Origin: Sipunculus nudus
Taxonomy: Eukaryota; Annelida; Sipuncula; Golfingiida; Sipunculidae
NCBI GenBank assembly: GCA_026874595.1
Contig: CM049308.1
Location: 11,683,501-11,747,500, forward strand
Direction of reading: 5' to 3'
Length of the DNA: 64,000 bases
Shown here: one piece after another, positions 15,618 through 60,834 of the stretch
How the letters are laid out: the number at the start of each line of letters is the position of its first letter
Position numbering within the stretch: the first letter of the stretch is position 1
The notes under the pieces: model-generated
What the model was told of the DNA's origin: nothing
Seen by the model: the letters and a program-made list of their open reading frames with translations, nothing else
Database searches by the model: none
Translations under genes and position numbers: made by a program

Positions 15618-18600
15618 TTATATCAAGTCAGCAACTGTAATAAAAACAATCACAAATTTAATTCACAAGTTCTAAAATAAACAGCAAAAATGGCGTTTAA
15701 TCAATTTCTGCACTAATATCAGCTATAGCACCATATTTGCCTCCACCAGGAATGCCAGTGAATGCAAACACAATAGGGGGACACCTTGCATGGTGGAGGC
15801 TTGCATTCCTTAGAATACATATTTCTAGTTATTATATAATTTGAACCACAAGTTGCCCTGGGTTGACTTTCTGAGCATGAAATATTATGAATATAAGCAT
15901 GACTTGTCAGCTTGGGAGGGGAGCATCTGAAAACCCATATCAGATTGATAAAGACACCTCTTGATGCCTATAGTTTAATGCTTATTAATCCAATTACTTA
16001 AAAAGCCCTCTTTGCCTCTGTATAACTGCCAACATTTTGGTATAGGGGACAGTTTAGCAAACCAATTTTAATGTTCTCTAAGGGAAGACTAACAAACTTA
16101 TCTTAATGGTTCTCTCAGAAATATAAGTCTTTGTACAGATGTGTCCATTCACTTAAGTGGAAGACTGCTAAGGCAGTGTTATAATTATAAATATATATAT
16201 TAATATTCACTTATTCAATTCTTGTACTTGTTATTTCTGTTACTCATAGATACCTTCCAGAATCTGTGAATATTATATGTTTAAATTTCCAGCCATGCAT
16301 CCTTACTCTATCCAATGTTAACAGTAATTAATCATTTATGTGTCACTGTCCTACCAGTGAGTTGTTGAGGCTCAGCATAGCGTATAATAATGAATCATCA
16401 ACATCATAAACACAGCGTCATCACAGCCTTCCAGCAGAGGACAAAATATCTGCTCAGTTTTAATTACACTTACCCTAAGGGACCATTACCTAATTGAGTT
16501 TAACAAATATTGTCATGGACATATAATGTCTGCAAGAGGCTGACCATGATATTCTACCAAGATAAAGAGAACGAAAGCCGTAAAAGTGTGAGAGCCACTT
16601 ACCATTCATAGGCATTTCATCAATCTGTGTGGAGTAGTACTGTTCAATATCACGTAAAATCCTGATGTCATCATTCTTTACAAAGTTAATGGCCACACCC
16701 TTTCTGCCAAATCTTCCTGAACGACCAATCCTGTGAAGATCAGAAGCGAATTTACACATTCAAATAGCACAAACAATTAAATGCACTTTAAGTAACATGA
16801 GTGAGAAATTCAGCATAGCGTATCATATAAAATCACTGTACTGGTACTCAAAGATTCATAATTTACTCATCATCATTTCTCACTAAAGGGCTCATTACTT
16901 TCATTCTATTAAAATGATAATCTGGCCTTGCGGACATAAGCACTATATAAAATGACTCTACTGGTAATACATGCATAACTCATCAGCCAATACAGAAAAA
17001 ATCAGTAAATATTTGAAAATTTTCAGAAAGAAAATATTGTCAATTTCTCCAACCAAATTGATTGTTCTTGAATAAATGAAATTGGCTACAGACTAGTAAA
17101 TTAAATAACTTTTATTTAATTGTCCTAATGTCTTTATCAAATCAAATTTCATCATGTTAAATGGAAGAAACAATAATTTTTAGAAAGCGTAAGTATGTTT
17201 TGTGGCCTACTTTAATATTTTACTATCCAGTGGAGAAACATACAGACCTGTGTATGTACAATTCTCTGTTGTTTGGCAGGTCATAGTTGATGACCAATGA
17301 GACCTGTTGAACATCAAGACCACGGGCCCACACATCTGTTGTGATCAACACTCGGCTATATGGATGAAAAAATATATGTTTATATCACTGAGACATGTAG
17401 AAAACATACACAATACAACAACAGTTCAACAACTCCTACACTGGATGAGCAGAAGAGATCTAAATTAATTATTGAGAGTGGTTCATACCTGGAACCAGCA
17501 AACATTTACCATTCATCAGCATTGATCCATGATGAACTGGACAAAAAAGTGCAAGGTTATGCGAGTAATAAATTACTGTCAAGTAATTGCAGTGTACAGA
17601 AAATTTCAGTGTACAAGTAGTTCTTGCAAATGTTCTGAAGTATCGGTAACTCATAATTACAGTAAAATCTTGCCAGCATGAACACCTGTGGAACCAGCCA
17701 AAGGGGTTGTGTTAGTGGGAGTTTTTTTTTTATGATGATTCACATTAGCCTGGGACCAAAAAAGTGGATGTATTAGTGGGGTCTTTGAGATAGTGGGGTG
17801 GTCACCAGGCAAGATTCTCTGTAAGACCTATTTTCCCCATTTTAGCTCTTTTTTTCATTCTATTTCCACTTCTATAAAATATTTGTATTTTACTTAGGTA
17901 CATCAGTAATAAAAGCACTTAACAGCAGGAAAGGTAATCTTTGCCCAGGGAGCTCTTCAAAAACACATGTAAATACAGAAGGTTATGAATGTGTCTAGTT
18001 TTGCAGTGTTCAGCTTAAAAGAAACTCCTCCCCCTTCCCCCTCATATCATAATTGAAATGCCAATGGAAGACTCAGTATAGCGTATAATATTACATCACA
18101 GTGCTCATTTATATGCTTGTCATCATTGCCTTCACTTAATGGCCTAAAAGCCTGATAAACAGGATTGCAAAATAAACACTTATTATTCTTTTTTTGTTTT
18201 GTTTTTTTCAACAATAAAGTCACAATTTACCATAATACACATCAGTATATATCAACATACAGTAGAAAATAACATACGTTGCTCCGGATCTGAATTCTTT
18301 CATGATAGCTTCCCTCTCTTTCTGTGGCATGTCTCCATGCATGGACGATACAGTGAAGTTTGCTTCACACATTTTCTCTGTCAACCAATCCACCTGGGAA
18401 GCACAATAATAAATTCTGGCTCTAATAACTAATGATCAAAGGTGGGCGACTAGTGCTTTATGTTTTTTTTCCATTTCCGGCAACTATAGTGAAACCAGTG
18501 TAATAGGACCACCTGTGTGACTGGATAAAAGTTGTCTTACTTCACAGGTGGTCTTACTAGACTGGTCAGTTATAACCAGTGGGAATGCTTTTGGTTCAGG

Positions 18601-21600
18601 CAAGGGAGGTCTTAATAGACCGGGGGTCTTTCAGACAGGTTCCACTGTACATCCTTTCCATTGTACAACAGTATATGCCAATCAACCAATATAATGATCA
18701 GCATAAGATGATTTGTTCCACCAGCCACTGGCCACTATATCATTGCACATTCTTAAACACAATCTTTCTTTTATGAAATGAAATAGGTTAAAGACAAGAA
18801 AATATCATCAACAGCTTATTTTATATTTTGACTTTTTCTTCCTTCCTCATCACCTTTCAGTCAGGTAAACTAGCAAGGCCGAAGTGTTGCCTTCCTTATT
18901 TTGACATCTGAATCATATTGACATGAATATTCATGACACCAGCATCCAAATGAAGTCCATCACAAGACTTCATGCATATGACCAAAGCCCTTCATAACAT
19001 TATCAAAAACAACACACCATGAAGAAAGTGATTTATTGCATTATTTACCAAATCTGATTTGTCTAGTTTTTTCTTGCTAATTACATTCTTCATTATTTGC
19101 TAGAAATTTGCACTTGGACAATAGGATGCACATTTTTAAAGCCATCAGAAAATATCTATAGATAAAGCAAATGTTGACACATTTTCCCTTCCATAATCTT
19201 AAAAATTACATTATAAAACGGTCAGGTGAATGGACAAAACAAACCTGCAACTGCCATCATTTTTGTATTCAATTTTGAATAACTAAAACTTAATCATGTG
19301 TTACAGTAATAAATCACAGACGGAGCCACCTATATTTACCTTTCTTTTTGTGTTACAGAAGATGACGGCTTGTGTAATGGTCAGTGTATCGTAGAGGTCA
19401 CACAATGTGTCAAATTTCCATTCTTCCCTTTCCACAGCCACAAAGAACTGTTTGATGCCCTCCAGTGTCAATTCATCACTGTAAATATATAATAACATGG
19501 ATACAAGTTTTTTTTAACAGGATTTAGACAAGGAAAGATCACTTAATTAACAGGTATTCTTTGTAACTGAACATTTTATATTTGATTTTAAATCACATTT
19601 ACAACAAGCAAATCTCAATTAATCATTGTTTTTCATTCCAGCATGAGTAATTCAGAATAGCGTATATGTTAATCATTATGTTTCAATTTGTGATATAAAA
19701 TATCATCATAATCTCTCATACATGAACAAGGAAATACTTGCTTACCTTACATTTATTAATAACTCAAAAGTTCTGAGCAGAGAATTAAAAATAACACTCA
19801 ATAAAACCACTTCATATATTGGGTAAGATATTAAGAGCATTATATGACTGGTAAATACAACAGCTGCTGAAGAGGACTGCCACCTGTAAAGACGACGTAA
19901 AAATCCTCCCTAACTTTACCACCCACACAATGAATTGCCAGGATCATTCTGTAAATTATCAGATATTCAAGAGTTAAATAAACAATTCAAATATTTTCAA
20001 GAAATCAAACAGACTAAAAAATTCATAAAATATTCCAGCAAATGCTAAAATCCCTGAATCTCTGAGGGTAAAACAGAAACATTTCCTGGAATTTCAACTT
20101 TCCAGAATATCCCATAAATGCTAATATAAATAACTAAATTACAGGACTCTTACAATTCAATCTCTGTGTAGTATTTAGGGTTTATTTGAACAATCAGGTT
20201 GAAATAACTGACCGTTTGACCAAGATCCTGATGGGCTCTGTCATGAACTTGCTGGTCATTTCCAGGATCTCGTGAGGCAGCGTGGCAGAGATGAGGACGA
20301 CTTGCGTGGCAGGGGGAAGATATCTGTACACATCGTAGATCTGTTCCTTAAAACCTAGAGGGCAAGATAACAAAACATAATAGAACAAGAACACAGTCAT
20401 GAAGTATGTACACTGACTGATAATTATTACATTACTTGACAATGATTTGACCTGAAATTGGTATGCAATTTCAGATTGAGAAATTCAGAATAGCGTATAG
20501 ACAGATCACTGTGGTTTCACTCAATGATATAAAATATCATCATCATCATTCCTCAAACTGAAAAATGTCAATAATCAAAAATAATATATTTAAATATAAC
20601 TCTTTAATTTCAATTATATTAATAATTTAGTCATCAAAATTGCAAGCTGCACAATAAGGAGTTTTAGAAGTATCTGAAGATAACTTAAGTAGTCCCCATT
20701 TGAAATTTGATTTATCAACCCATTTGAATAGTTTGCAAAGACCATTAATTGATGTTTTACATAATCAGACACATTTAACACTATAACTAACTCTGCATAC
20801 TGCAAGATTGATAAAACATTATTCTACCAAATATTGTTTAATATGGATAAAGCACATTTGCTCTAGTTGTTAACATATTATAATACAACTGCTCAAGTTG
20901 TTAATGAAGTGAATGTTGGTGCAAGGGTGCTTGGAACAATGTGACCACCAGGCTAAGATACTATGATGAAGGATTTTGTTTGATTAAACTGAGGTAATGT
21001 TTGGAAAAATTTTCTTATCTTCTACACAAAAGCTCAAAGAATGCAGGTTACTTGGTTTTCTGTAAATAAATCATGATCCAGATGCCAATATGAAACATGA
21101 GCTGCCCACCTTTGTTCAACATTTCATCAGCTTCGTCCAACACTAGCATTTTGATTGATCTGGTCCGCAAGTTTCTCCTTCTGATCATGTCTGTTAAAAT
21201 ACAGCAAATATATCAGTGTTACATATAAATCACAAACCAACATAACTTAAAGAGTATGAGAAACACTTGACACCAAAGTGCTAAAAAAACAGTTTTCTTT
21301 AAGATGGCTCAGTCTTATGCATGTTTGAATCATTTAGGCTCATGGCTACACTGAAAAGTCATCACTGCCATCACAAGATGTTGTACTAATGTTATTAAGA
21401 GCATACACCTTATGTATATTTTATCAATTTTTAAATTAATTAGTAATGACTGTAAAACTGTATGCCATAAGTATATTAAAGCATACCTTCAAAAGAAGAG
21501 GGATATAACTGTGCTGTGTATACATGTTCACTTGATGTAACCCTTAAAGACAATACGTATTAGGAATCATGGTGGATATATACAATAATTCAGTACTGTA

Positions 21601-24600
21601 ACTTACCAAATACTCTTCCAGGTGTACCAGAAACAACATGCTGCCCATAGTCAAGTTTTCTTATGTCTTCTCCCACATTGGTCCCACCAATACATGCATG
21701 ACACTGGACACTCATATAATCTCCAAGGGCTAATATTACCTGTAATGGTATAAACACACACTGGCTTTAAATCTTCTGTAAACAATGAAACCAGACACTA
21801 CTTAATCACAATGAAAATTGAGCAAACAATTCTTGAAAATCAACAACCTGAAAAAAGTTTTATATATACAACTTGCATGATACATTACAACTTAAACAAG
21901 ACACCATTTTATTATCTAAAAATTTAAGTATTAATATTGTATTTCTTGAAAGCTATATCCTCCCTAATAACCAGAAAATAACATATTGATCATATTAACA
22001 ATTAATGAAATTGAAAATAAGATAGCTCTATGACTGGAGCACATAAAAATATGCCAACACAAAATGACCTGGTGATTGGCATGTACATAATTTTCCTTCC
22101 TACATTTCTTTTGAATCCCTAATGACCTCTGAATAGCATCTGCATTATTACTTTAAGAATGATGCACACGTAAGTATTCTTTCAGGGTTTCCACACTTCA
22201 ACCTAAGAGAACTTCCAAGACTTATTGGACCTTAAATGTCTCATCAACAATTTCCTATTATGTATGAAATATTGTTCAAGCTTAATGACTTACTGATGAA
22301 AACAATACCATTTAGTTTACATTCTGGCATGATGGATATGCAAATAGCAACAACACATCCTTCAACTCATTCCAAAATTCGCTCTGTCCATCAAAGGATT
22401 TATACAATTACACAACATTTTACAGTATGTAAGACCTATTAAGCATAACAAAATGTGTTAATTTATTCTCCCCATATAGGAAAATTGACTCTGTCTTTAA
22501 AGGACCTGAGAGACAAATATATAATTTCAAGGAATTTCAAGGCCTCAAATTTTATATTTGTTTTAAAATCCATGACATTCCAGGTTTTCAAGGACCTACA
22601 GACTCCGACTTTGAAAAAATCTTGCAGTATGTATCTACGATGCAGGCATACCTTCTGGATCTGGACAGCCAACTCTCTTGTTGGTGACAAGACAAGGGCC
22701 TGCGTCTCTCGTACCTGCGTGTCGAGGCCCTGGAGGATCGAGATGGAGAAGGTGGCGGTCTTTCCTGTACCTGACTGAGCCCTGCAGGTATAAACAATCA
22801 CTTGTGTTTGAAATCCTATAGCTGGTTAAATGAGTCATGTGATAAAAATGTAGTTTTGCCCAAACTAAGATCATGCTTATAATCAGCTCATTATATGGCT
22901 GCAATAGCTGTGAAACTGGACAGTCTGGACTTGTGCCAAGGTTGCTAGCTTGTATTCAGTTATTATCTAGAAATTACAAACAACTTCAGACTTCCTACTT
23001 TTTTACCATATATGAACAAAATCAAAGACTCACAGAGGTCCTGTAAGGTTTATATGTGTAAAGTACCATGATGAATTTATCATGATATATCATCCTAAGT
23101 GGACAGAATATCTGCTTGGTCAGCATATCATAATTAAACCTTACAAACCAGCCCAATCTTATTCCAGCTGTCTTGCATATTTGTCTAGGTTAGCTCAGTC
23201 TTGGGTCTCACAAATGACAGTTTGAAATCCTGGACAATCACTGCAAACCTTCTTGACGCTTAAACTACATATGTTATGAACTCACTGTGCAATGACATCT
23301 CTGCCCTTTACGATGGGTTTGATAGCTCTCTGTTGAATGGCTGATGGCTTCTCAAATCCTTCAATTATAAACAAAACACATGTCAAATGCACATTTTTAG
23401 CTCAGCTGACTTTAAGTCATCTGAGCTATAGTCGTGGTCCTTTGTCGTCGTCCGTCCGTCCGTCTGGCCATTCGTTAACAGGGCACGTTTTAAAACCATT
23501 GGACCTACGAAATCAAAATTCTGCATACCAATAGATGTATCCAAAATCTCCTACCATACCGAAAATTGGGTCATTAGGACTTCGTTCCTTTGAGATATTA
23601 AGGAAAAACCCCTGTTTTCCATAAAAAAGCCATTGTCACACTTCAAAGCTGCCTAATATCAAAACCACTGATCTGTTTTTGATCATATTTAGTATTCATA
23701 TTTTTCCATACATTTTCTGTGGACATACCAAAAATTAGGTCAGTATTGGGTATTATTTTGAAGTTATGGGCCCAAATATAATGCATTTTCTTAAAAATCA
23801 GGAAATATATTTGCTTACTTAACATGAGAATTGCTGATGCTGGAGACTTTTTTTTCAGGAATATAACTTTATTTAATCAAGATTCAATTGTTTACCCAAA
23901 ATTAGATCTGAATTTTGCAAATTTTTCAAGTTATTAGCATAAATAAAAAATCAGTACCTTAAATTTTGTCCAACTTTGGCAATGGCACGTTTTTTCCCTG
24001 TAAGCACTGTTGATTTAATTTTCACAGCATATATACATAAGGATTTAATGTTTTAAAACCTGAAATTTCAAAGGAATTGTTTGAAAAGAGTAGCTTTTAT
24101 TCAAGTTTTCATACACCATGTCAATTGTTGTTTACATCTGGCCCACCTAGTAATACAGTCTTCACTTGCATTATGTAACCCACCCCAGGCAGCTTGCCCT
24201 GGCTTAGCTTGGCCACTACTAGCAGGCTTCCCCTCTGCCCTGCACTCCCTCCCCCCCCCCCCCCCCCCCAGCTGGTGCATAAACTAGATGAATGTTATAA
24301 TTTTCTGTATTTTATTTTATTTAGGCTATGCTACATTTTAGATTTTGTATTGTACCACCAGGGTTACAATGATTAAAGTGCACATTTAATTGTGTCCACA
24401 AAGTAATGTATTGCAATGAAAGTGTGGATGTTCATCAGAGTGCTCATTAAAGATTTTAATTTGTTTGACTTATAACTCATGGTTGTATCAATTGTTACAT
24501 GATACTGGCTAAATAATCAAAATTTATATTGCTGATCCTTTAATTTTAGTTCATGAAATTAAACATTCCCAACTCCAGTTTGCTCCTAGTATAATATATT

Positions 24601-24952
24601 GGGTGTTTTGATCCTTGGATTAATTTTAACACATGTATTAGTTTCATAGTTGAGAATACTTTCTTTTTTCCTGATACCATTTAAAAAATATAAATATTTA
24701 AATTTTTCCTGTTAGAGCTGTGGATTTAATTTTCACAGCATGTACATATTAGCATTTCATCTGTTAAAATCTGAAATTTGAAACTAATTGATCAAAAACT
24801 GTAGATTTTATTCAAGTTTCCAGGTACCAAGTCTTCATTGTTTACATCAGGTCAGTATAAATGCAGTGTACTGGGCAGTTACATAACACCTTCAGGTCTG
24901 ACCTACTGCCACTGTGAGTGTCTGGGTCAGGCAGTAATTACCAGAGAGCCTC

Positions 24953-24983
<31 letters not shown>

Positions 24984-25048
24984 GGCAGTTTAGCTCTCTC
25001 TTTCTCTCTCTCTCTCTTTCTCCTCTGCTTTTTCTCTTTCTCTCTCCA

Positions 25049-25094
<46 letters not shown>

Positions 25095-28000
25095 TTATTG
25101 CCTCTCTTCCTCCCTCCATCCCATTCTGTTGACAGGTACTATAAACTAGATACATTAGCTATAAATGTTGATGCAATTTAGAAATGTGAATCAACTGAAA
25201 TATTCACAATCACATGTATGTTAAACTGTAGATTTATAGTAACATTCGTAAACCTGGATAAAAATTATGTAATGAAAAAAAGGAATAAATGCAAATATTG
25301 TTAATTTTTTATTGGCTCATTAGAATGGGGAAAAAAAATGATTTGCTTTGTTTCTCCATCTTTCTGCCTGTTTTAAATATTTAATGTTCATGAATAAACT
25401 TTTTTTATAAGCACTATTGAATTAAATTTCATATCCTGTATGTATATGCAAGGGTGTTGTAACTCTCCCCATCCCCTACTTCATCCCACTGAGGCTTTGC
25501 TCCTTGGCACTGTGAACAATAGTTCTATGGCTATAGCATAAAATTTAATAATTAAAGAAAATATCTACAGAGAGACAGAGGCGTTGTAAGTCTGATCATA
25601 ACACAACACCCCCCCCCCCCCTCCCCCCCATCAAGTCATTGCACCTGTGGAGTGGGGACGTTATGGCAACTGTATAAATATCATAAAATTGATAAAAAGG
25701 GTTTACCAAATAAATTGGATCTCATCAGACAAATGTGTAAAACACATGTAAAAAATGTGTTGAACTGTCAACAGCTTATCAAAAATGTAACCAATAGAAA
25801 GGCATGGTCGGATCTCAAATATTATTTGCAACATTTTCTTCAATCATATAAACCAACCATGGCCCAAATTACCTCTTCCTCTCAAACTTTACCTACATTT
25901 CATCATATTTTTAATATTTTAAACTTCTAGGTGGTTCAGTACTGTTGACCATTTGTCCATAGGTACCTATGTACATGCCAGAAATTATGTCAATATTGTG
26001 TTATATGCAGACGTGAGGGTCATCAAAATAATGTACCAATCTTGCAGTTTTCCATACACTATAGATCCTTCAACAAATAGCCTTATCATCATTATACCAC
26101 TGCTTAGTATAAGTACTGTCATTGCATTCATATTTGCTCAAATAAATTGTTTTTTTCGACCCCTCCCAAATAAATAAAAAATAAACCACTATATTTTACT
26201 CCATATTAATCCATCAGTCAGATTATTTCATATATCATTTACTCACATATTACATTATATTCCTTTATAAAAGCCCAACATGACCATGATATTCATAAGC
26301 TTTTTCTACTCAATATAGTATAACAATGGTGATACATTTATAGTCCAATCATGATCAGCTGAGCGTCGTGACCCATGGGTCCCTTGTTAAAGAAAAGTTT
26401 TGGCTAGTATCATTAATTTTGACAATTTTACTTTAAATTGTATGTAAAATTACTCAAAAACAATTAGAAAACACAAATATTTATTCAGATGAAACCTACG
26501 AGACAAAATTTCACTCCATATCGCTCATACAGTCAGGGTAGGTTTTCTGCCAAGGGCAGAAATAGGGTAGAAATATCTTTCTGCTGGGCAGAAATAGTTT
26601 CTACCTGGCAGAATTGGCAGACAGACAAGATTAAAAATGCTAAATATGGCAAGGGGTTAATTATTTAAGATTTATCACCTGAATATCAATAATATAGTGA
26701 GATTAATTTTCATATTCCAAAATATAGACCCAATTTTTAACATGTATCACTCAGGCTAATATTCAGGGGAACAAAGACCAAAACTTTCAGTTTGTACCAA
26801 TAATTATGACAAAATCTTATGACTGGAACCGTTGTAAAATATGATAGGTAAAAGTGCACTATAGGAGACCTCAGGTCACCGCACTGCAAGTTATTCCACA
26901 CGGGAAAGGCACAGCCGCTACCACAGTCCCGGGGCGGCATAACTGTACCCCTGTAACCTCTGTTTACCATATTTAAAATTTGGTAAAAGTAGTAACATAT
27001 TAACAAGCAATTACTTGAGACATGTGACCATATGGTATAAATATACGGAGTGCTTATTGACACACGGTCCGAAATTCTCGGTTGCCTCGATTTGGAAGTC
27101 TCGGTTACCGTGTTTTGAGGTCTCGGGTACTGAGAATTGGGAGTGTCGGTTACCGTGTGTCACCAGTGGTCAGTCATGCGTACCGCAATAAAGCTGGCGC
27201 ACCGTTGCCCCATTTAATCACTTTGATCACTGGTGTCCTAGATCAATGGGCCAGGTAACTTCAAAGGCTAGCCTACAAGGGAAACTGGGCGTCATGAAAT
27301 GTGGTTTTTTTTATCATTGCGAAGACGTTTCTTTTGCCTTATTGTAACAGGGGTTTTCCAGGGTAATTGTGTAATTAAATTTTTTTTTCAATGCGACAAT
27401 GGCCTATTTTCCATCTTTAACGCAAATTATAAACAAAAGTAATGTTCTGTAATATAAAGGAGATGTATAATTTTACAAAAAATAAGCATTTTATTTAAGG
27501 TGGTGTTGTTTGAGAGTCATTGTGTATCCTAAGTCGAATTTATCGGCTCAAACTTTGATCTACCACCATAACGTTATGCATGACGTTAATGTTGATAAAG
27601 TCGCTAACAAAACGTTGCATTGCATTGTACAAGCTATATTTGACTAATTTGAGCACATTTAGTCATAAAATATCAAATATGGTAGTTATTCTTATATAGA
27701 TATCCATTTTCATTTATTATAGAATAATAAAAATTTGAAAATAATGCGTCAAAGATAATAAATGAAACAAGCCTTTAAAAATTCTCTAGTTGCATATTTA
27801 CCTCATCCAGGGCCCCTGCATGGCAGGGCATGCATTATATATTAGGAAACACTGTTTACAGGTCGAGAAGGATGATACTGAAGAAGACTGTATTGGAATA
27901 TTTAATTTTATATGGAACTTGCTTGAATATTTATGTACGGTATATTTTGTATATAATAAAAATATGTATGCATGTTTGTGTCCGTATCTTAACATGTTTA

Positions 28001-31000
28001 TATTGTGTATATTTATATAGCATGATCAATTGTTTGGATTTTCTTTTTTTATTACAGAAATGTAGTACATGCATAACGTAACAGTACATACATACAAACA
28101 TACATATAGAAATTAATATTTCAATAACAATTTACATTGAATCGTGAAGATTATTCATGTAGAGGACAGCAGGTCGGTAAGGTTTTCCCATTTTGAATAA
28201 TGTTGAGTTAATTTACCTCCTCAAATTAAGTTTCTTAGCGATTACATCATATGTTGAATAAATCTGCTTAACATAGCTTATACATCCATGATAGTTCGGT
28301 AACATTTTGAGACATCTGCAATTACAAACATACTTTTTAGCAACCAGTGTTAGCATATTTAGCCATCTATGTTCGCTTTAACCTAACAAAACTTCAGATA
28401 CTGAAAACTTAACAGAGGAGTTTAATGATGAATTATTCAAAACCTCTTGTATATTTTTAACCACAAGTTAGCGACAAGAGGACAATTCCAAAAAATATGT
28501 GATAAAGTTTCTCTTACTAATTTACAAAAGGTACAAGTAGGAGAATCTATTAGCCTACATTCAGCTTCATAGACTGGGGCAAATGCTGGACAAGAATTGA
28601 GTGTGTCCAGCATTATTTGCTGATATGCTTCATGATCAAGAGGCTCACAGGAAGTAATAGAAAGTAATATGTATTACTCTATTACTTTGCCTTCTGTTTC
28701 TATTACTATTACTATTACAGCTAAAATTTTTGAGTCTATTACTATTACTATTACATGGAAAAAGCTGTAATAGTCTATTACTATTACTATTACTTATTAC
28801 TATTACCCCATGTCTGCTATGAAGAAATGGGTTTAACGTCACCCGACGTTGTAGTTCATAAAACTGAGAATTCCTAAGTGGTACAAAATTTGTTGTGTCA
28901 TAAATCTTGGAGAATCCCATATAAACAATCTCCTCTGATATATCAATTAAATCTTGTTTCCATTTCTAAACTACTAAGTCTGGAGTGACTAAATGTTTCT
29001 CTTGTTTTCTCTCATCATTAGAGTGTACGGGTTGTGCTTTTCTTATAACGGTGTAAAAGTAAATTTTTACACTTGTTCCAACAGCGGACCAAGTATTCTA
29101 CTAAAGTCTTACCGTTATAATTTATGAATTAAACCAATTGAATTGTATTATCAAGTATAGGAAACTGCGTAATTGTGTAAGATGTTTTATCATACAGAAT
29201 TGTTAGGGGTTCGTAATATAGGCAGAACATTCAAAACCATTAACTGTGCCTCTCATCTTCGACGTCACCGTTTTTACATTTGACACAGCCCCTTGCTTCA
29301 TTGTTTAGGTTCTTGTATTTATATGGTGGTATCAGCCTATATATGGTGTCTAAAATCTGTCAGTTTCACTTCTCAGCGCAAGTATCCCACACCAAAGCCG
29401 AGCAAGTGTACTGAACTTAATTTGCTGTCGTCGATCAGGCCATATACTTTTTACGTATATACTTAATTATGTGCCGTGCACTGAGTGCTGATAAAACTGA
29501 TAAAAAATCTTAATTTCAGAACTGATCGGTATTGTTCAAGCCATTTATGTTGATTATCAGAACGTAACTTCTTGTTCAGATTACGTTGGCAATGCGTCGT
29601 ATTTCATTATATGTGTGTATTAATATACATCAATGGATTCGAGTATATCTTACTTCTTTGCATCTGAGCACTCAGTTATCGGCGACTTGCAAGGTTATAA
29701 TCCAATATAAATACTTTCTTGGTTAGACTTGTGTAATCCATAGTGATTCCAAAACCGTAACATCTCAATCAAATGATATCTACATGTTAAACAACCAATG
29801 TCTCTTTTAGAGCAGCAATTACACATGCAGAACCTGTGAACACTAAAAAAGGTAACGGAGCGGTCCGTTTTGAATTTTATCACATGACGGGGTTTATGCA
29901 TATCCCCATAACTCAGACGCATAATCTATAAGACTGTTACTACCATCATAGTATTTAAGTTTGTAAAGGAGTCATATAAGTATAGTATCCTTAAAATTCT
30001 TAAACTTGCTCAATACTAGACCAAGAGATTACAATCCAACAGGCACTAGGAAATCAGAACTTTTAGGCCATAAAAAAATGGATTTTATACCGACATTAGG
30101 CTTTTTATTTTTTCTGTTAAGCCGTTAATACATATATATTAAACAGCGTCACGGATTATATTGCCCTGTACCTCACATAGTACCCCAAACCAATTTGTGA
30201 AAATATTATTACTTAATCATACATAAGCTGAATAACTACTATATAAACTTTTTTATGGTGTTATAGATTTTGTGATCAAATTTTAGTCCAAACAGCTGCG
30301 AGTGAAGAGTAGTTTCCTATATTTACCCATCAACAGCTTTTTTCCTGCATGCATGCACATGCCCACTTACTAGGGCGACGTGTTTCTATTCCTTGAGGCA
30401 AACGATTACTTAATAATGAAGAAACTAAAAAATATGATCAGGACAGGAGCGACCTTTTCGAAACCCATTCTGATCTTTGGATATAGGGTTAAGTTTGTTA
30501 AAGTAAGACGCGTTATTCTATAATCGATCAGGCCACGATGATGAGTTGTTGATAAAGATATGACCATTCCATGGCTCGTAGTAACTTAGCCAATTTCATT
30601 TTCGGTTTGTTTCTCTGATTTTTAACATGTACACTTTACATCGTGAAAATCTGGAAAAGTATACATCTCATAAAGAAGAATGTGACAAAATTCTCAATAA
30701 TCACGTCTCTATTAAAATTAGAGTAATAAAGTATCCACTTCTCCAGGTTAATAGCAATTATTTCATTATTCAGTACTTATCTATGTGCTTATCAAGTTTG
30801 TATATTTAGTAATAAAAAACTATGATTAACTTACTATATTTTGTATTAATTTCAATAAAGCTTATTTGTTCCTATTATCCTTGTTTATTATTTTCTGATT
30901 AGAAAAATGATATTGAATAAAACGAGATATATGTATGTAAATTATATTTTATTTTTAAATGACACCCGTGTGTCAATAAGGGCGGCCATAAATATAAGCA

Positions 31001-31450
31001 AGTCAGACACTTTTTGGCTTGCACCTGCACAGCTCACCATTTATCGCCCATCTTAAAAGCAAGAAATCCGCCGGTAATAAGCACAACTGTCGATAAAATC
31101 AGTTCATGATTAAGTTTTCTGCACAGATGATAATAATGTTGTTTTAAAGATATTAAATTAACTCAAGCTACCGATGCAAAACACAGGAGAACCATTCATG
31201 TGTATACAACACATACAACTGACGACTGGCTGACGTTTTCGCAACAAGCACAGATGACCAATGCATCACTACAAGTGCGTTAAAAAACTGTATGTATCTA
31301 TTTTTACGGAAATGTTTGATTACCGTATGCATATATTCCTCGAAGCAGATCTTCTCTGATGCCCATCTGATCGAATGTGGGGGTAACGTCCACATCTTCA
31401 GACGTTTCAAATTCTACGTTTCGCAAATCTTCAGCCACACGCCGAGCCAT
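15618..31450 (-). CDS. EIF4A3: Eukaryotic initiation factor 4A-III (DEAD-box RNA helicase)
   Basis: Core ATP-dependent RNA clamp of the exon junction complex (nucleus/cytoplasm). Eleven coding exons on the minus strand: 31450-31324, 23358-23286, 22781-22652, 21739-21607, 21190-21110, 20354-20213, 19478-19340, 18393-18278, 17355-17248, 16730-16603, 15634-15618. All phases agree and total 397 codons plus TAA; human eIF4A3 is 411 aa. Motifs: AQSGTGKT (68-75), PTREL (100-104), GG (128-129), TPGR (149-152), DEAD (173-176), SAT (204-206), ARGLD (324-328), HRIGRSGR (349-356). The subtype is set by [27 protein letters not shown], and the C-terminal [20 protein letters not shown]...MPMNVADLI, which is eIF4A3 rather than eIF4A1/2. 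The start is the first ATG ([20 protein letters not shown]), in an acidic N-terminus typical of eIF4A3. Intron 1 is about 8 kb. Six introns carry snoRNA-like sequences. Confidence 0.97.
16368..16429 (-). ncRNA. Box C/D snoRNA-like, 18S guide family, copy E (eIF4A3 intron 10)
   Basis: Minus strand, host sense. C box GTGATGA (16424-16418) and D box CTGA (16375-16372), closed by a short AGGC/GCCT stem. The guide ...TATACGCTATG immediately precedes the D box. Ten bases complement the universal 18S stretch AUAGCGUAUA. The base fifth upstream of box D pairs with the G of AAUAG. This is the shortest copy and has the weakest stem. Confidence 0.65.
16800..16884 (-). ncRNA. Box C/D snoRNA-like, 18S guide family, copy D (eIF4A3 intron 9)
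   Basis: Minus strand. A perfect 10-bp terminal stem, AGTGAGAAAT with ATTTCTCACT, encloses C box ATGATGA (16873-16867) and D box CTGA (16813-16810). This is the canonical kink-turn layout. The guide GATACGCTATG lies directly before the D box; nine bases complement 18S AUAGCGUAU. It sits about 70 bases downstream of the 5' splice site of this intron. Best-formed member of the family. Confidence 0.8.
17661..17829 (+). mobile_element. Short inverted-repeat element, family 2 copy b
   Basis: The ends ACAGTAAAATCTTGCC and GGCAAGATTCTCTGT are inverted repeats. The interior has AGTGGG and GTGGTCACC blocks. Lies in eIF4A3 intron 8, beside snoRNA copy C. Confidence 0.6.
18066..18135 (-). ncRNA. Box C/D snoRNA-like, 18S guide family, copy C (eIF4A3 intron 8)
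   Basis: Minus strand. C box ATGATGA (18126-18120) and D box CTGA (18076-18073), with a short GAAG/CTTC terminal stem. The guide TTATACGCTATA lies before box D; ten bases complement 18S AUAGCGUAUA. The host orientation and layout match the copies in neighbouring introns. Confidence 0.68.
18486..18650 (+). mobile_element. Short inverted-repeat element, family 2 copy c
   Basis: ATAGTGAAACCAGTGTAATA at the left opposes CAGACAGGTTCCACTGTAC at the right. The interior has repeated GGACCACCTGTG and AGGTGGTCTTACT blocks in inverted order. Lies in eIF4A3 intron 7. Confidence 0.6.
19643..19719 (-). ncRNA. Box C/D snoRNA-like, 18S guide family, copy A (eIF4A3 intron 6)
   Basis: Minus strand. C box ATGATGA (19709-19703) and D box CTGA (19655-19652). 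The terminal stem ATGAG/CTCAT continues through a mismatch into further pairs. The guide ATATACGCTATT is directly 5' of box D and gives the longest match, 12 contiguous bases, to 18S AAUAGCGUAUAU. Expected product is 2'-O-methylation of the G in AAUAG by the box D+5 rule. Confidence 0.78.
20476..20556 (-). ncRNA. Box C/D snoRNA-like, 18S guide family, copy B (eIF4A3 intron 5)
   Basis: Minus strand. The 8-bp terminal stem TTGAGGAA/TTTCTCAA has one G-U pair. C box is ATGATGA within a run of TGA repeats (near 20549-20543) and D box is CTGA (20488-20485). The guide TATACGCTATT is directly before box D; 11 bases complement 18S AAUAGCGUAUA. Its left half resembles copy A (GATATTTTATATCA just after the C box), so the two copies look like recent sisters. 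Confidence 0.78.
21303..21372 (-). ncRNA. Box C/D snoRNA-like, different guide (eIF4A3 intron 4)
   Basis: Minus strand. A perfect 6-bp terminal stem GATGGC/GCCATC encloses C box GTGATGA (21365-21359) and D box CTGA (21312-21309), 70 nt in all. An internal AATGATT may be a C' box. The sequence before box D is CAAACATGCATAAGA, unlike the five other copies. Only an 8-base match to 18S (AUGCAUGU) came to mind and it is set off from box D, so I assign no target. Confidence 0.65.
23395..26389 (+). mobile_element. Long dispersed repeat, family 3 copy a (3.0 kb)
   Basis: Starts TTTTAGCTCAGCTGACTTTA followed by AGTCATCTGAGCT (a hairpin) and (CCGT)n. Ends at a palindrome GACCCATGGGTC then CCTTGTTA. 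Contains poly-C runs, a CT microsatellite and internal tandem copies of an AT-rich unit with AACTGTAGATTTTATTCAAG. No protein motif seen. Lies in eIF4A3 intron 1. The second copy is at 61147-63694. Confidence 0.75.
24950..25095 (+). repeat. CT microsatellite
   Basis: Imperfect (TC)n run inside the long dispersed repeat. It creates Ser/Leu or Arg/Glu repeat frames on the two strands that are not genes. Confidence 0.9.
28160..30560 (-). pseudogene. Decayed non-LTR retrotransposon (reverse transcriptase to C-terminal zinc motif)
   Basis: Minus-strand fragments in several frames, in LINE order. The RT block [20 protein letters not shown] is at about 30505-30427. A thumb/connection-like stretch [18 protein letters not shown] is near 29930-29870. 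A segment [15 protein letters not shown] lies near 28890-28820. A zinc-knuckle-like [20 protein letters not shown] is at about 28545-28470, followed by a typical tail ([10 protein letters not shown]). Many stops and frameshifts mean no coding capacity. It lies inside eIF4A3 intron 1, in host orientation. Confidence 0.75.
28680..28808 (+). repeat. CTATTA microsatellite
   Basis: Runs of (CTATTA)n within the LINE remnant, splitting its C-terminal coding traces. Confidence 0.8.
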
Positions 31451-32429: not shown

Positions 32430-33795
32430 CAGTCTCGGAAGACTGTATGGTTTTGCGCCCTGGTAAGATGTAACTCTGGAACAACGTCTTGTATGGTCAG
32501 TCATGCAGGCTTATGCGGGCCCGCGCGGGAGTGGCAGCCTCCCACAGCGAGTACACAAGAACTCTGATACGTACTGTTATATCGGTGTGTCTGGCCGTCC
32601 TCTTCTGACTCTTGGCTTTGGATTGCTGAACACAGGGTCTCTACGAACTTGGTGAGGTCTTTCTGTACTCTCTGCCTCCAGGTTGTTCGTTCTGAGGCGG
32701 TGACTTCCCAGTTGTTCAGTTCGATGCCCTTTGGCGTTCGGGTCTCCCTGGCAGACATCTTTGCAGCGGAGTTAGGGTCTACCTGTGTGGCGTACTCCCT
32801 GTACCAGTTCACCGTAAAGGAGATCCTTTGGGGATGCGACCATCGTCCATTCTCACGACGTTTCCGTGCCATCGCATGCGTCTTTGTATGGCGTCCGTGC
32901 TGGGAATTTCAGCTCTGTTCATGACAGCAGTGTTTGGCACTTCATTCTGCCAGCTGATGTCCAGGATGCGGCGGAGACATGTGGAAAGCATTCAACTTGT
33001 GCTCAGGATTTTATGGCGCGTATTGGCCAGGCCTCACTGCCATAAATCAAGGTTTACAACATATATGCTCTGTAGACCTGCATATTGGTATTATTAATGT
33101 TCTTGTCAGGGTGGTGTCTGCCTTGCCAATACGCTTGTTCAGCTCAGTCTGAAGAGAGAGGGAGCCAGAGATCGTTGAGTCCAGGTAGACGAAGTCGTGC
33201 ACGACTTCGAGCTGGTAATCTGAGATTCTGATGTCCAGTAGAGTGTCCACATCCTGTTCCATCATTTGCGTTGTTTTCAGGTTGATTTTGAGTTCAAAAG
33301 CCTGACAGGCTGAACAGAATTGGGACATGAGCTTCCGCAGGTCTTTAACAGAGTGGGTTGTGACTGCTGCGTCGTCTGCAAAGAGTAGGCCCCGCACACA
33401 CTTCAGTTGATCTTTGGACTTTGCTCCTAGCCTGGAGAGGTTGAAGAGGTTTCCGTCTGACATGGTTCGGATCGAGGTAGATACCTTCGGTAGCGGATCT
33501 AAAGGCATGCTTCAGCAGGACAGCAAAGAAGATGCCGAGTAGGATCGGAGCAAGGACTCAGCCTTGCTACCCCATTTCGGATGACAAATTAAGGCTTCTG
33601 TTGTCGCGCTGTCATTAACCACGGTACCTTTCATGTCATGTCATGTCATGGAAGGACTTTATGATGCTGAGGAGCTTGGGTGGACATCCGATCTTATTGA
33701 TGATCTTGCAGAAGCCCTCCCTACTCACCAAGTCAAACGCCTTCGTCAGGTCGTGCAATATAGCAAATCTTGCAATAGTAAAGTTTGACTTACAA
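32430..33795 (-). pseudogene. Decayed endonuclease/reverse-transcriptase LINE fragment
   Basis: Minus strand. The RT palm is visible: DLTKAFDLVSREGFCKI near 33770-33710, then LLFADDAAVTTHSVKDLRKL (FADD active site) at about 33395-33330. It continues through a connection region (FVYLDSTISGSLSLQTELNK), LRRILDISWQNEVPNTAVMN, and the MRWHGNVVRMDDGRIPK motif common to this LINE group. It ends near a Cys/His-like tail. Frame changes and a truncated 5' end make it a dead copy. The longest intact piece is 153 codons. Confidence 0.85.
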
Positions 33796-40395: not shown

Positions 40396-42729
40396 TTAAA
40401 TCTTACACGGGTATATCTCATTGGCCAAATAAAGTTGGATCACGTTTGTCACGCGCTGTCGAAGCACCATTTCTTCATTAAGCCCAAGCCATTTGCTCTG
40501 TGTCCCGGACAGAACGCGAGGTATCCACACGATCACAGCAGACACCAGTACCTGGCCTAACAACTTGTCATCATATAGATGAAAACTTTCCATATTCAGA
40601 CATATTATATTAATAAACACCACCAACAGAATGATATCTATGACAACCTTAAACTCCATGACGTGTACGGAAGGCACAAGAGAGTAGCAGCGTTCCAGGA
40701 GTTCTTTGGGAACTTTGATTTTCCCTTCGTCATTCTGAAGAATCTCTGGTTTTGTTTCTGGGTAATCCCTGGTATAGCGTTCGCATTCTTCCTGGAGCAA
40801 GTAGTTGATTTTATGAAACGGTTCCTCAAGGCGTGACAGCAGACCAAGCGCGCAGGATATTACTGCCAAGATCAAGATAGCCCGGGGAAGCTCCGTATTG
40901 TAGTTAAGAAGAAGACCAGATACTGTATAACTGATGATGAGCGCTGAAAGATGAATAGTCGGGACGACCAGGAACGTTATCACAGCTGCCACTCCAAGAA
41001 ATATAGCAATAAGAAGCATCAAAAACTTCAAAATCTTCACCCACTTGCGTGCATTTCCGTCGCGATCCTGTATCTCTGGATCTGCATGCTTTTGTAAGAT
41101 TTGGCAACAAAGAGCCCCCAAGGGAGTCAAAGCAATTGGCGTGAAAAGCAGCAAAAGAGAATACAGAACCACAGCATTCAACACTTTGTTTTTGAAGTAG
41201 CTGCTGACGGGTTTCATGTTCGAAGGCCGAAAGATTGCTAACCAAAAACTCCAAAAGTCAAGATTAACAATTAAGGCAGCCCGGTGGATGAGATGATTGT
41301 ATGTGATCGCGTGTTCTGATTCCTGTCTTGCTTTCACTCTCAAGTTCGATGGAAGATCTTGACCAAAAAGTGTGCCGTTGTCCCTGTAACTCCATGATGT
41401 GGTATCGTTTTTAAACACAAGTGGCAAACCGATGGCATAGAGAGCCCCCGCGAAAACGTATATATACAGGAACATTATCAACATTATGTTGTAGTTCTCT
41501 CCTTTATCACTGAGGAGCCACTCAATTTCGATCAGTTCTTTATCTCCGAAAGCGACCCTGGTTTTGAATTCTTCATTGTAATACATTAAATCTGCGGCCA
41601 TGTAGAAATAAATGTACGATGGAATGACTAGTACCAGAATGGTTCTTCTGATGACAGTCACTAATATGCAAGACCAAGGATGGAACAATATATAGTATGG
41701 AAGCTTTGTCAGATTGACTGGTGTGGCTGTACCTAGCACGCACCAAGAGGTTCTACCGTTCTCGTCTGTAGGCGCTGTGGTGTCAGCATTACTGGGTAAA
41801 GTATCAGTATCCTTCCGAACGGATGATGTTTCATTTAAATCAGGCGGAAGAATATGAGTATAACTGGTTTGTGCTGATATATCAGTACCTAACAAAGGCT
41901 TAGAGATGTCAGAATCTTTGGCAACGTATTTGACTGCATACGTCAACTTCGTTTTACATCTACAAACTGATTTCTTTTTCTCTGTGGCCATTTCAGTGCC
42001 CTCCGGTGGGATACACCATTTTATTGTCAGTGGCAAGTGGAAAAATACAATAAAACCAATGACCTGGCACAAAAAGTGGGCGATGAAATCAAGTCTGTAG
42101 ACTGGTTCCCACTTCTCCATAACTTCTCCATTAAACTTACTACAGCAGTGAAACACCTTCGCATCATCTTGATGGTGACTATGTTCCTTATCACAAGGAT
42201 ACTCCGGACCACTTTTTGCCAAATCTAAGTAATTTTTGAAACAGAGATATTTAGAACCTTTTTGAAGAGACATTTTGTCAGTCGGTCGATATACCATCTT
42301 TCTTAGAGTTTTTACGATTACTTCATATCGTTCCTTCAGGGGCAATCCTAGGAAGCATGCCTTGTCGTACGTCATTTTTAAAGTAATGGATTCCATTGAT
42401 TCTTTGAAGGTACCCAAGGCAAAGGTGTCGAATCTGTAATCTTTGGTCAGCAAGGTTTTCCCCATTTGATTCGTTAGGATCCATTTTCTTGGGTCATTTA
42501 GGCGGCTGTCACTGTCAGTCTCATGGGGTAATATGTCATCCCCCAGTAAAAGTTCTAAGCGGACAAAATCTACCGCGTTATTGTAAATTTTACTCCAAAG
42601 ACGTGCTTGACTGTGATTGGAGATGCTTGTTTCACATTCTGGATGTTCTATATTGGAAAAAAACGCCACCTCGTCCACTGAACAAGAGGCCAGCGATACT
42701 ACCATAAACACATTCAAAAAGATGAACAT
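40396..42729 (-). CDS. Uncharacterised multi-pass membrane protein, single coding exon
   Basis: Uninterrupted 777-aa reading frame, by far the longest in the window and intronless among intron-rich neighbours. I do not recognise a named family. Residues 1-16 (MFIFLNVFMVVSLASC) form a signal peptide. An N-terminal extracellular-type domain of about 195 residues contains C125, C163, C179 and a CC pair at 195-196. A first hydrophobic segment is at about 213-236. A low-complexity Ser/Thr/Asp loop covers 270-330. Further hydrophobic segments are near 352-378, 413-438, 515-545, 564-590, 592-608, 615-632, 690-712 and 722-740, about nine in all. The start is supported by the signal peptide directly following the ATG. 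On the coding strand CTACAG|G lies about 10 bases upstream and could end a 5'UTR intron. A receptor or transporter role is possible but not shown. Confidence 0.85.
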   Translation of the reverse strand: MFIFLNVFMVVSLASCSVDEVAFFSNIEHPECETSISNHSQARLWSKIYNNAVDFVRLELLLGDDILPHETDSDSRLNDPRKWILTNQMGKTLLTKDYRFDTFALGTFKESMESITLKMTYDKACFLGLPLKERYEVIVKTLRKMVYRPTDKMSLQKGSKYLCFKNYLDLAKSGPEYPCDKEHSHHQDDAKVFHCCSKFNGEVMEKWEPVYRLDFIAHFLCQVIGFIVFFHLPLTIKWCIPPEGTEMATEKKKSVCRCKTKLTYAVKYVAKDSDISKPLLGTDISAQTSYTHILPPDLNETSSVRKDTDTLPSNADTTAPTDENGRTSWCVLGTATPVNLTKLPYYILFHPWSCILVTVIRRTILVLVIPSYIYFYMAADLMYYNEEFKTRVAFGDKELIEIEWLLSDKGENYNIMLIMFLYIYVFAGALYAIGLPLVFKNDTTSWSYRDNGTLFGQDLPSNLRVKARQESEHAITYNHLIHRAALIVNLDFWSFWLAIFRPSNMKPVSSYFKNKVLNAVVLYSLLLLFTPIALTPLGALCCQILQKHADPEIQDRDGNARKWVKILKFLMLLIAIFLGVAAVITFLVVPTIHLSALIISYTVSGLLLNYNTELPRAILILAVISCALGLLSRLEEPFHKINYLLQEECERYTRDYPETKPEILQNDEGKIKVPKELLERCYSLVPSVHVMEFKVVIDIILLVVFINIICLNMESFHLYDDKLLGQVLVSAVIVWIPRVLSGTQSKWLGLNEEMVLRQRVTNVIQLYLANEIYPCKI

Positions 42730-43404
42730 AGCGTATACCTGTAGAGATCCTATTGACTTCTTGTGTATATTTTAGAGGGTATCATCCGTATCACTCGTTC
42801 AGTCTCTTGCACGAACTGTTATCTCAAGGTTCTTCTTACTACACTGTATTACATAAGCAGAGCCACCTTGATAGAGTGGACATATATCGGGCACCGTGCC
42901 CTAATCAGTTAACAATACTCATATTAAGAAACATCGGAGTTTTCCTCTGTGTTGTGTTCTACAGATCCAGGTCAATACATCTCTATGTGATGCCGCATGT
43001 ATATATCCAGCATACAAAAGGATCCGTATCTTTCGTTAAATATCCTAGGTAAAGCAGACTGTCTTTATTACCCTCAGTTAAAGTATGAGAGTATATATAT
43101 GGCGGAGCTTAATCCCTTTCAGTTCGTCTGTCCCTGTGCATGCACAGTATATGATCGCTATGTGTTTAGCATGGCTATTTATTTAAGGTTGCGGAGATTA
43201 ACCTTAAAGATACAGCACGACTGTATACACTTTTTGTCAGGACAAAGGATGTTTTTATCTCCAATAACTTCCTGGTGTTGGGGAAAACCGTATTTTATTT
43301 ATATATTCAAAGTTGTTTACGTGTTAAACGATACACTTTTATGTACTGCACTATATACGTACACAGCATGCCACTTATACAGTAATATAATATAGAGTAC
43401 CGGT

Positions 43405-58900: not shown

Positions 58901-60834
58901 ATTGACTTTTGGAAATTTTATTTATTTTTAAGGACGAATATCTAGAATTAATATGGTAGAATGAGGAAGAAGGGGTTTGGCTCGACATTGACGGGTTGGC
59001 CGAAGATTCAGTGACATTTGTCTTATATTGAGATTAGAGGAATTAACAGGATAAAAAATGATGGATGTCCAAATTCTTTTATTGAAACAATTATGAATAG
59101 TATAAAATGAAATTAAATAACAAACAATATACAGGTAAATATTTTCAATTATTAAAATAACTCAAAACCTACCTAAGTTTCACAGGAATCAACATTGTCA
59201 GTGATGGATCGCTGCATGGCATTGACGGGTTGGTCGGACATTCAAGTCACAAATTTTTGCTCTTGGACTTGTAACCGCACATAAGTCGACCCCCCAACTT
59301 TTGATGTTTTTTTCAGGCTGAAAATTTCTCTTGTTTTATGCGAGTTTTTATGGTAAGGTACACTCTGCATCATATTCTGCAGCGGTTATACACTCCATCA
59401 CTTTAACAGATACTTTGTATAGCAAGATACTCCGGGTCACACCACCAGGGGTCACACAAAGCAAACAGTTGTAATCAGGCCAATGAGAGCATGGTATCCT
59501 TTTGTGCATCCACCTCCAATTTTAACACCACAACACCCTGCTATCATTGGTCTGATTCTTGGCCCTGTGCCAGCTCTGATGTTGAGCCCCCGGAAAACTT
59601 GCTAAAAAAAGGCAGCAATTATAATTAAGGAGATCTGGAATGACAGCAGGGTTTAACCACTGTGTGGGAAGTGGATTAAAGGGAAAATTTATTATTTGAG
59701 TTGCATCATCAAACAAAGTTACATGAAGAAGCTAAATTTCCATATTCAAATCAAACCATGAACATGAGTAATGATGCAATCATCACATATATGATCCTAA
59801 AGTCACCCGGATATGACTATGTTTATACCAGCAGGTCAAGTGCTTGATGATGATCATAATGCTGGTGCCTTATCAGATTGGCAATTACATAATACAAGTA
59901 GTGTCAGTATATCCATGAGGACATGTTTTGTAGTTTTTTGCACTCACAGGGTCCTGATACATCAATGCATCAAAGACATGTACTTTTACATGCATTTATT
60001 TGCTTGTTATCCTGAATGCAGTTCATAATTAAAATGGTCAAAATATATTTTACAGCTCATATCTTTCCTCATGCATGTTTGTTTTACTGATTTGTTTTGT
60101 TAACTAGTAGATCTAGACTATAAATCTGTCAGAACTTTTTGTGTCATACTGTGAGTAAATTTCACCATGATATAACATTCATTCACTTGATTTCAATTAA
60201 ATTTGTCGGTTTTTTTTCATCTTAAATTATTTTTTGGTGTCTGAATATAAGACAACTCAATAGAAAACCTTGAGATGTACAAAGTGTACAATTACTTTTT
60301 ATATAAATAAGAATTTACCAAAAGGATTTTAAATTTATGATGGTAAACCCCAATGGCAGCAAAAACTTTAGTTCACAGAGCCATTCACGTGACTTTAAAT
60401 ACTGTCTGTAAGATATATGAAAAGCCATACTGGTCAATTGCAAAGAGATATAGAAAAAGAATTCACAAAAAAATTAGATCACACTGTATGGGAATCCAAC
60501 CCATGACCCTTTGATTGTTGGTTGTCTGCTCTACCACTGAGCTAACAGGGATCCCCAACCCTTCTGTGTATTAGCACATTTTCATGGGAAATGGCGAGGC
60601 AATGTCAGGGTATTATACATGCTATCTGTAGATATTTTGCTTTCTGAATTTTTGCACATGATTGCTTTGTTGTCTTTTACAAAATCATCTGAATCTTAAT
60701 CTTGATTTATTTTTCATTTATATTTGACAGGGTTTTACTGGTTTGGAAAGAAAGTTGGCAGCAGTTCAACATTTCCAACCAGAGAAGGTGACTTGAAACT
60801 TTGGGGAATTACATCATCTGAAACCTCAAGATAA
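52914..60834 (+). CDS. CEBPZOS-like small mitochondrial-type membrane protein
   Basis: Three exons: 52914-53043, 55335-55379, 60731-60834 (TAA), with consistent phases (1, 1), giving 92 aa. An in-frame TGA lies two codons before the ATG, which fixes the start. The sequence begins MRKYPTKGKSGHKAVPWLRR, then a single hydrophobic segment at about residues 20-40 (RVIIGETVLFGAFAVTWFQ). It continues SSEFRFKVHKYCPSLLNGFY and later REGDLKLWGI. The layout matches vertebrate CEBPZOS: basic N-terminus, one ExxxxFGA-type membrane segment, a short xxFRxxxxKxxPxxL motif, an aromatic motif, then a Trp near the end. Human CEBPZOS is 80 aa. The first two exons alone would not identify it. Intron 2 is 5.4 kb and repeat-filled. 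Confidence 0.6.
55575..57910 (+). repeat. About 45-bp minisatellite (CAAGGAGGTTATGTTTTCAT type), interrupted
   Basis: Tandem units of the form CCAAGGAGGTTATG, TTTTCATCAGTGTTTATTGG, TATGTATATATCT, in CEBPZOS-like intron 2. Left part is 55575-55876; right part is 57057 to about 57910. The array is open in several frames on both strands, an artefact of the unit. A hAT-type element splits it. Confidence 0.88.
55877..57056. mobile_element. hAT-type non-autonomous element with 8-bp target-site duplication
   Basis: 1180 bp, starting CAGGGTTGGGTTTTATC and ending ACTGCCAACCCTG (inverted CAGGGTTGG). Flanked by TTGGTATG at 55869-55876 and again at 57057-57064, an exact 8-bp duplication. Eight-base duplications with CAGGG termini are the hAT signature. 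Sub-terminal GGATAAAAC/GTTTTATCC motifs are repeated near both ends. No transposase domain seen. Confidence 0.85.
58235..58560 (+). repeat. Degenerate GTACCTGTA-type repeat
   Basis: About a dozen occurrences of ACCTGTA or GTACCTG, including inverse TACCTAGGTA palindromes, in CEBPZOS-like intron 2. Unit length is irregular. Confidence 0.6.
60485..60560 (-). repeat. tRNA-like sequence, probable SINE head
   Basis: Minus strand: an A-box-like TTAGCTCAGTGGTAGAGCA and a B-box-like GGGTTGGATTCCC at tRNA spacing, with a partial CTGT/ACAG acceptor pairing. The anticodon arm does not fold and the B box has one base off consensus. A tRNA-derived SINE or pseudo-tRNA is more likely than a working tRNA. 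Confidence 0.6.

Follow-up and report, generated by a model that had tools for sequence, protein, structure and literature searches.

Five putative box C/D snoRNAs of U54 type share one 18S rRNA guide in introns of an eIF4A3 gene of Sipunculus nudus

Why would five introns of a single helicase gene carry the same ribosomal guide? The question is raised by a stretch of 64,000 nucleotides (nt) from Sipunculus nudus (assembly GCA_026874595.1, contig CM049308.1, positions 11,683,501 to 11,747,500; hereafter the window, whose own numbering is used throughout), the minus strand of which holds a gene for the helicase eIF4A3. A preliminary description of the window placed box C/D small nucleolar RNAs (snoRNAs) in introns 5, 6, 8, 9 and 10 of this gene and proposed that all five address one base of 18S ribosomal RNA (rRNA). 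On the evidence of sequence, the five elements are very probably intron-encoded box C/D snoRNA paralogues of U54 type.

All five copies lie on the minus strand, in host orientation: at 20476..20556 in intron 5 (C box 20546-20540, guide 20498-20490, D box 20488-20485), 19643..19719 in intron 6 (C box 19709-19703, guide 19665-19657, D box 19655-19652), 18067..18133 in intron 8 (C box 18126-18120, guide 18086-18078, D box 18076-18073), 16800..16884 in intron 9 (C box 16873-16867, guide 16823-16815, D box 16813-16810) and 16368..16429 in intron 10 (C box 16424-16418, guide 16385-16377, D box 16375-16372). The C box reads ATGATGA in four copies and GTGATGA in intron 10, all five conforming to the consensus RUGAUGA, and the D box is CTGA throughout. 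From C box to the end of D box, the intron 8 and intron 10 copies measure 54 and 53 nt. The common guide before box D that had been proposed is indeed present, as the 9-nt sequence ATACGCTAT, identical in every copy and placed one base 5' of the D box. Uninterrupted terminal stems of 4-10 base pairs (bp) close four of the five copies: 9 bp with one G-U (intron 5), 6 bp with one G-U (intron 8), a perfect 10 bp (intron 9) and 4 bp (intron 10). The intron-6 copy has no uninterrupted stem of at least 4 bp and closes only with one mismatch (8 of 9 pairs by eye; score 7.0). With this proviso the boxes and stems described earlier are confirmed, as is a stem quality that ranges from short (intron 10) to a perfect 10 bp (intron 9).

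The target was examined on the assembly's own 18S copy, a broken unit of 1048 nt on contig C18. Pairing extends over 11, 12, 10, 9 and 10 nt for introns 5, 6, 8, 9 and 10, in line with the 9-12 bases first given, and the fifth base from box D (D+5) falls on the same G in all five copies. The same G, there G595, is also met at D+5 in the 18S of L006, a contaminating eukaryote contig; both 18S copies were picked with a pattern that includes the target. A table in PMC3511168 lists human Gm644 and Arabidopsis Gm597 as U54 targets, and one table row of PMC11542601 gives Gm644 with Gm599 and Gm598, the column that we take as yeast being empty. The columns that we take as human and yeast in the latter table pair Um627 with Um578 and Am668 with Am619. 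The 18S of L006 is 1800 nt long and has U and A at positions 578 and 619; the offset of 49 at both flanking sites therefore equates its G595 with human G644. The earlier assignment to G644, the U54 site, stands. The own 18S copy (L033; C18:44500-52500) spans the whole Rfam model minus a large part, and we read this ribosomal DNA unit at the contig end as broken or misassembled.

The host gene occupies 15618..31450 (minus strand), with 11 exons and 10 introns. Exons 2-11, from exon 2 at 23358-23286 to the last coding exon at 15634-15618, were cut at GT/AG borders and translate without an internal stop, which defines introns 2-10. Exon 1 was located near 31.3-31.45 kb by motif search (coding part about 31450-31324, borders counted by hand), bringing the gene to ten introns; together these borders bear out the intron numbers 5, 6, 8, 9 and 10. 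A hand-assembled 355 residues matched eIF4A-III in PDB at E=1e-224 (747 bits) and eIF4A-I at 6e-172 (574 bits), which favours eIF4A-III as the predicted product and disfavours eIF4A-I/II.

Rfam models and shuffled sequence were used to assess the copies. Against RF01277 (snoU54) they score 36.3, 33.1, 31.3, 20.4 and 30.2 bits (introns 5, 6, 8, 9 and 10), relative to a cut-off of 35 bits that is a curation threshold and not a functional feature. The outcome of this check is thus divided: intron 5 passes and introns 6, 8, 9 and 10 fall below, these four being classed as paralogues of the intron-5 copy by their common guide and alignment. When the 15.9-kb gene was dinucleotide-shuffled 200 times, guide plus D box (TACGCTATNCTGA) never occurred. 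Scanned for the combination of C box, D box and stem, the gene yielded five candidates: four of the copies described above (introns 5, 6, 8 and 9) and an additional element in intron 4. The intron-10 copy lies under the stem threshold. Over 200 shuffles of the gene the scan averaged 0.2 candidates, with at most 2 in any shuffle. The same scan found no candidate elsewhere on the minus strand of the window and none on the plus strand; intron 7 holds no C/D candidate at the thresholds used. ACGCTAT, the core of the guide, occurs at two further minus-strand sites of the window, neither with a D box next to it.

Searches were then extended to the whole assembly (1.43 Gb, 153 contigs). Guide plus D box (ATACGCTATNCTGA) occurs 23 times, the reversed pattern five times. 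Five of the 23 matches are the eIF4A3 copies, each with a C box, and the remaining 18 have none within 110 nt by our pattern. Five of these 18 lie on contigs C66, C72, C73, C74 and C75. Small contigs C61, C62, C66, C72-C75, C89 and C99 carry full-length ribosomal S10-domain frames with near-identical scores and are probably bacterial contigs inside the assembly. In the RF01277 search 63 of 683,762 candidates were scored; 11 matches reached E<=10, four in eIF4A3 and seven elsewhere, and four of the best five lie in eIF4A3. The third of these five (L036; C2:58983141-58983211, minus strand) reaches 31.7 bits to the U54 model with a stem and a guide unlike U54, and looks like a different C/D snoRNA. 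None of the seven outside matches holds the exact guide (by eye, middle 120 bases), and L041 was set aside as a U54 copy for a guide with one change in weak surroundings. Sub-cut-off RF01277 matches appeared in all 14 prokaryote control genomes, which indicates that weak matches are mostly noise. No guide plus D box and no snoRNA match was found in the 9.9 kb that surround an RPS20-like exon spotted by eye on C4, and the neighbourhood of an S10-domain match on C3, itself weak and partial, showed no U54; a scan of viral contigs for the target 18S stretch gave nothing. As far as these searches reach there is no second U54 locus; with 63 of 683,762 candidates scored, a diverged U54 copy elsewhere in the genome is possible.

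Several observations weigh against the assignment to U54. Four of five copies remain below the curated Rfam cut-off, the genome-wide E-values of the eIF4A3 copies are just 0.003, 0.025, 0.077 and 0.157, and the intron-9 copy is not among the genome-wide RF01277 matches listed. The intron-10 stem has just 4 bp and the intron-6 stem its mismatch. The 18S copy of the assembly is truncated and was chosen by a pattern that contains the target. From D box to 3' splice site the copies measure 130, 173, 717, 79 and 737 nt (introns 5, 6, 8, 9 and 10), and PMC1821038 puts the vertebrate optimum at ~70 nt; only one copy is near this value, so inefficient production or decay may affect some of them. Unequal output is also hinted at by the short intron-10 stem and by the location of the intron 8 and intron 10 copies far upstream.

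What the copies have kept and what they have lost bears on how the array arose. Mean pairwise identity is 1.0 for guide and D box and 0.94 for the C box, and falls to 0.34 and 0.36 in the spacer segments, 0.30 and 0.30 in the flanks and 0.20 at the single base before box D, where ~0.27 is expected by chance from 35.5% GC by our arithmetic. The stem sequences are 0.43 and 0.48 identical, still paired in most copies. With guide and boxes kept and spacers and flanks near chance, selection seems to maintain the guide. The divergence of spacers and flanks further implies that the duplications are old, or that the snoRNA body alone was copied. In pairwise blastn of introns 2-10 the best matches run over the snoRNA bodies (80 nt between introns 5 and 6, 84 nt between introns 5 and 9, others shorter), and short matches outside them are noise-like (E 0.005-1; 22 nt between introns 3 and 6, 28 nt between introns 7 and 9). 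Segmental duplication that included the flanks is rejected by the flank identity of 0.30 and by matches that centre on the snoRNA bodies. By length and by the bases 3' of the D box the copies fall into two sets, which suggests two sub-lineages: a longer set in introns 5, 6 and 9, with similar bases there, and a shorter set in introns 8 and 10, with a common CTGAG. Recurrent intron-to-intron duplication, as first proposed, is likely; with flanks near chance identity, either cis recombination or retroposition may have been the mechanism.

We propose that the eIF4A3 transcript would be spliced and its introns debranched and trimmed to the C/D core, by analogy with known intronic C/D RNAs. The usual proteins of such RNAs are 15.5K/Snu13, Nop56, Nop58 and fibrillarin. 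Each RNA, together with these proteins, would pair its D-side guide with 18S AAUAGCGUAU and direct 2'-O-methylation to the G at D+5, which corresponds to human G644. The array would have arisen from a single U54 copy that was duplicated long ago within the gene, with purifying selection on guide and boxes keeping copies of overlapping, redundant function. Expression, processing, methylation and duplication origin are the steps that we infer. A bolder extension of this model, which we think unlikely, is that U54 function in this lineage rests wholly on five introns of eIF4A3, instead of a ribosomal-protein host as in vertebrates, and that the extent to which an 18S base is modified thereby depends on how an exon-junction-complex helicase gene is expressed and spliced.

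The presence of five copies, as distinct from their identity, admits more than one explanation. Quite possibly the duplicates persist by chance, with one or two at work and the weak ones near loss, a form of neutral redundancy for which PMC3511168 has the term 'constrained drift'. Stem lengths between 10 and 4 bp and a nine-fold spread in distance to the 3' splice site speak for it, and same-host copies are common among C/D families (PMC8178906). In Ostreococcus, snoRNAs from successive introns of the same gene can accumulate very unequally (PMC7671301). A guide intact in five of five copies amid near-chance spacers is, however, unexpected if some had long been without function.

That same retention of the full guide and both boxes, despite divergence of nearly everything else, would suit a need for more U54 than one intron delivers, in which case copy number itself is selected. 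The likewise multiplied U14 in an Hsc70-type gene of this genome lends this idea some weight. We consider it somewhat unlikely, as two copies lie more than 700 nt from the 3' splice site and additional family members need not raise total family abundance, according to a human survey (PMC8178906).

Private targets, addressed by a separate D' guide in each copy, are quite improbable. The D' halves do differ strongly between copies, but the sole plausible D' match of at least 9 nt, against 18S and 5.8S from L006 and large-subunit rRNA from L003 (likewise a contaminating eukaryote contig), is a 10-nt match of the intron-9 copy to 18S. The assembly's own 18S copy does not include this L006 site, and three other candidate D' matches (two in large-subunit rRNA, one in 18S) fall on C-box or stem positions and were discarded. 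Very improbable, too, is regulation in cis, whereby the snoRNAs would pair with intronic branch-point regions of eIF4A3 and affect its splicing. A precedent is reported for SNORD2 in EIF4A2, an eIF4A paralogue that hosts five snoRNAs (PMC10324135). Against the last 120 nt of each intron (introns 5 and 9 offer just 118 and 67 nt downstream), duplex energies gave z of -1.5, -0.6, -1.7, 0.5 and 0.6 (introns 5, 6, 8, 9 and 10) relative to mononucleotide shuffles, not clearly beyond them, and pairing with the intron end found no support. A chance arrangement is scarcely credible, for although the boxes are short and the introns AT-rich, guide plus D box is absent from the shuffles and a single gene holds five of its 23 genome matches, the only ones with a C box. 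Five U54-type paralogues that descend from one copy remain our preferred reading, and five paralogues on one transcript, with varied stems and splice-site distances, form a natural series for measuring intronic snoRNA productivity.

A sixth box C/D snoRNA, with a different guide, is predicted in intron 4 at 21303..21372 (minus strand; C box 21365-21359, D box 21312-21309, candidate D' box 21343-21340). Its stem is GATGGC/GCCATC, and no Rfam family scored above its cut-off. The D' side shows a 10-nt pairing with 18S GCTACACTGA, at A1469 of the contaminating contig L006, a match known from that contig alone since the stretch lies outside the own 1048-nt copy. Elsewhere on the minus strand of the window, 33047-33511 gives a weak RVT_1 match (E=0.003, 17.8 bits, below the Pfam cut-off of 29.6) and is likely a retroelement remnant. 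At 60480-60551 (minus strand) a tRNA match of 32.4 bits barely exceeds the Rfam cut-off and ARAGORN makes no call, perhaps a tRNA-derived repeat. A 791-codon open frame at 40396-42771 (minus strand) has no Pfam match and, by eye, abundant hydrophobic stretches.

In comparison with known systems, the five copies resemble U54/SNORD54 in being of box C/D type with a D-side guide to the same 18S G, the intron-5 copy being over the cut-off of RF01277. U54 entries belong to Rfam clan CL00008, in which RF00206 is the human/Arabidopsis entry named by PMC3511168 and RF01277 the one matched here. The difference lies in number and host, with five copies in eIF4A3 here and one in intron 3 of chicken RPS20 (PMC2653536), and U54 thereby joins those snoRNAs that have different host genes in different lineages.

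A close likeness is U14, which has one guide in several introns of one gene, Hsc70-type here and HSPA8 in chicken. Six U14 matches, five over the Rfam cut-off (120 of 49,531 candidates scored), all lie in a 30-kb span of contig C12 (loci L051 and L052, about 74.58-74.61 Mb). On the plus strand four occur in a row, between frames with fragmentary matches to DnaK/Hsp70 models; the other two are on the minus strand in a nearby MCM-type gene, among frames of which two give fragmentary matches to an MCM model. Intron placement was deduced from the way the open frames succeed one another rather than from a full gene model, and the name Hsc70 is ours. The six U14 copies are near-identical over their full length, whereas the U54 copies are alike mainly in guide and boxes.

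Comparable arrangements recur in the literature. In chicken, PMC2653536 places U14 in HSPA8 introns 5, 6 and 8, U18 in RPL4 introns 2, 5 and 6, and HBII-108 in GNL3 introns 5, 7 and 9. In Drosophila the introns of mfl carry a single C/D snoRNA as four isoforms, DmSnR60 a-d (PMC1821038), alike in having several isoforms in one gene and different in that their introns lie in variable 3' untranslated regions and their D and D' guides are both directed to 28S. Sponge snoRNAs are doubled in adjacent introns (PMC3412847), and 59.5% of human C/D families with at least two expressed members have all of them in one host (PMC8178906). EIF4A2, an eIF4A-family gene hosting five snoRNAs (PMC10324135), provides a parallel on the host side, the host there being EIF4A2 and here eIF4A3. 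In literature on eIF4A/eIF4A3 hosts, mollusc snoRNAs and U54, with most subscription journals outside its range, no report was found of eIF4A3 as a snoRNA host or of a U54 array in it. The amplification was initially called striking, a judgement we do not share, as DmSnR60 a-d, the same-host human families and U14 in the same genome show the same pattern. The arrangement is of an ordinary kind of guide-RNA multiplication, in a host gene, eIF4A3, that did not appear in the literature covered.

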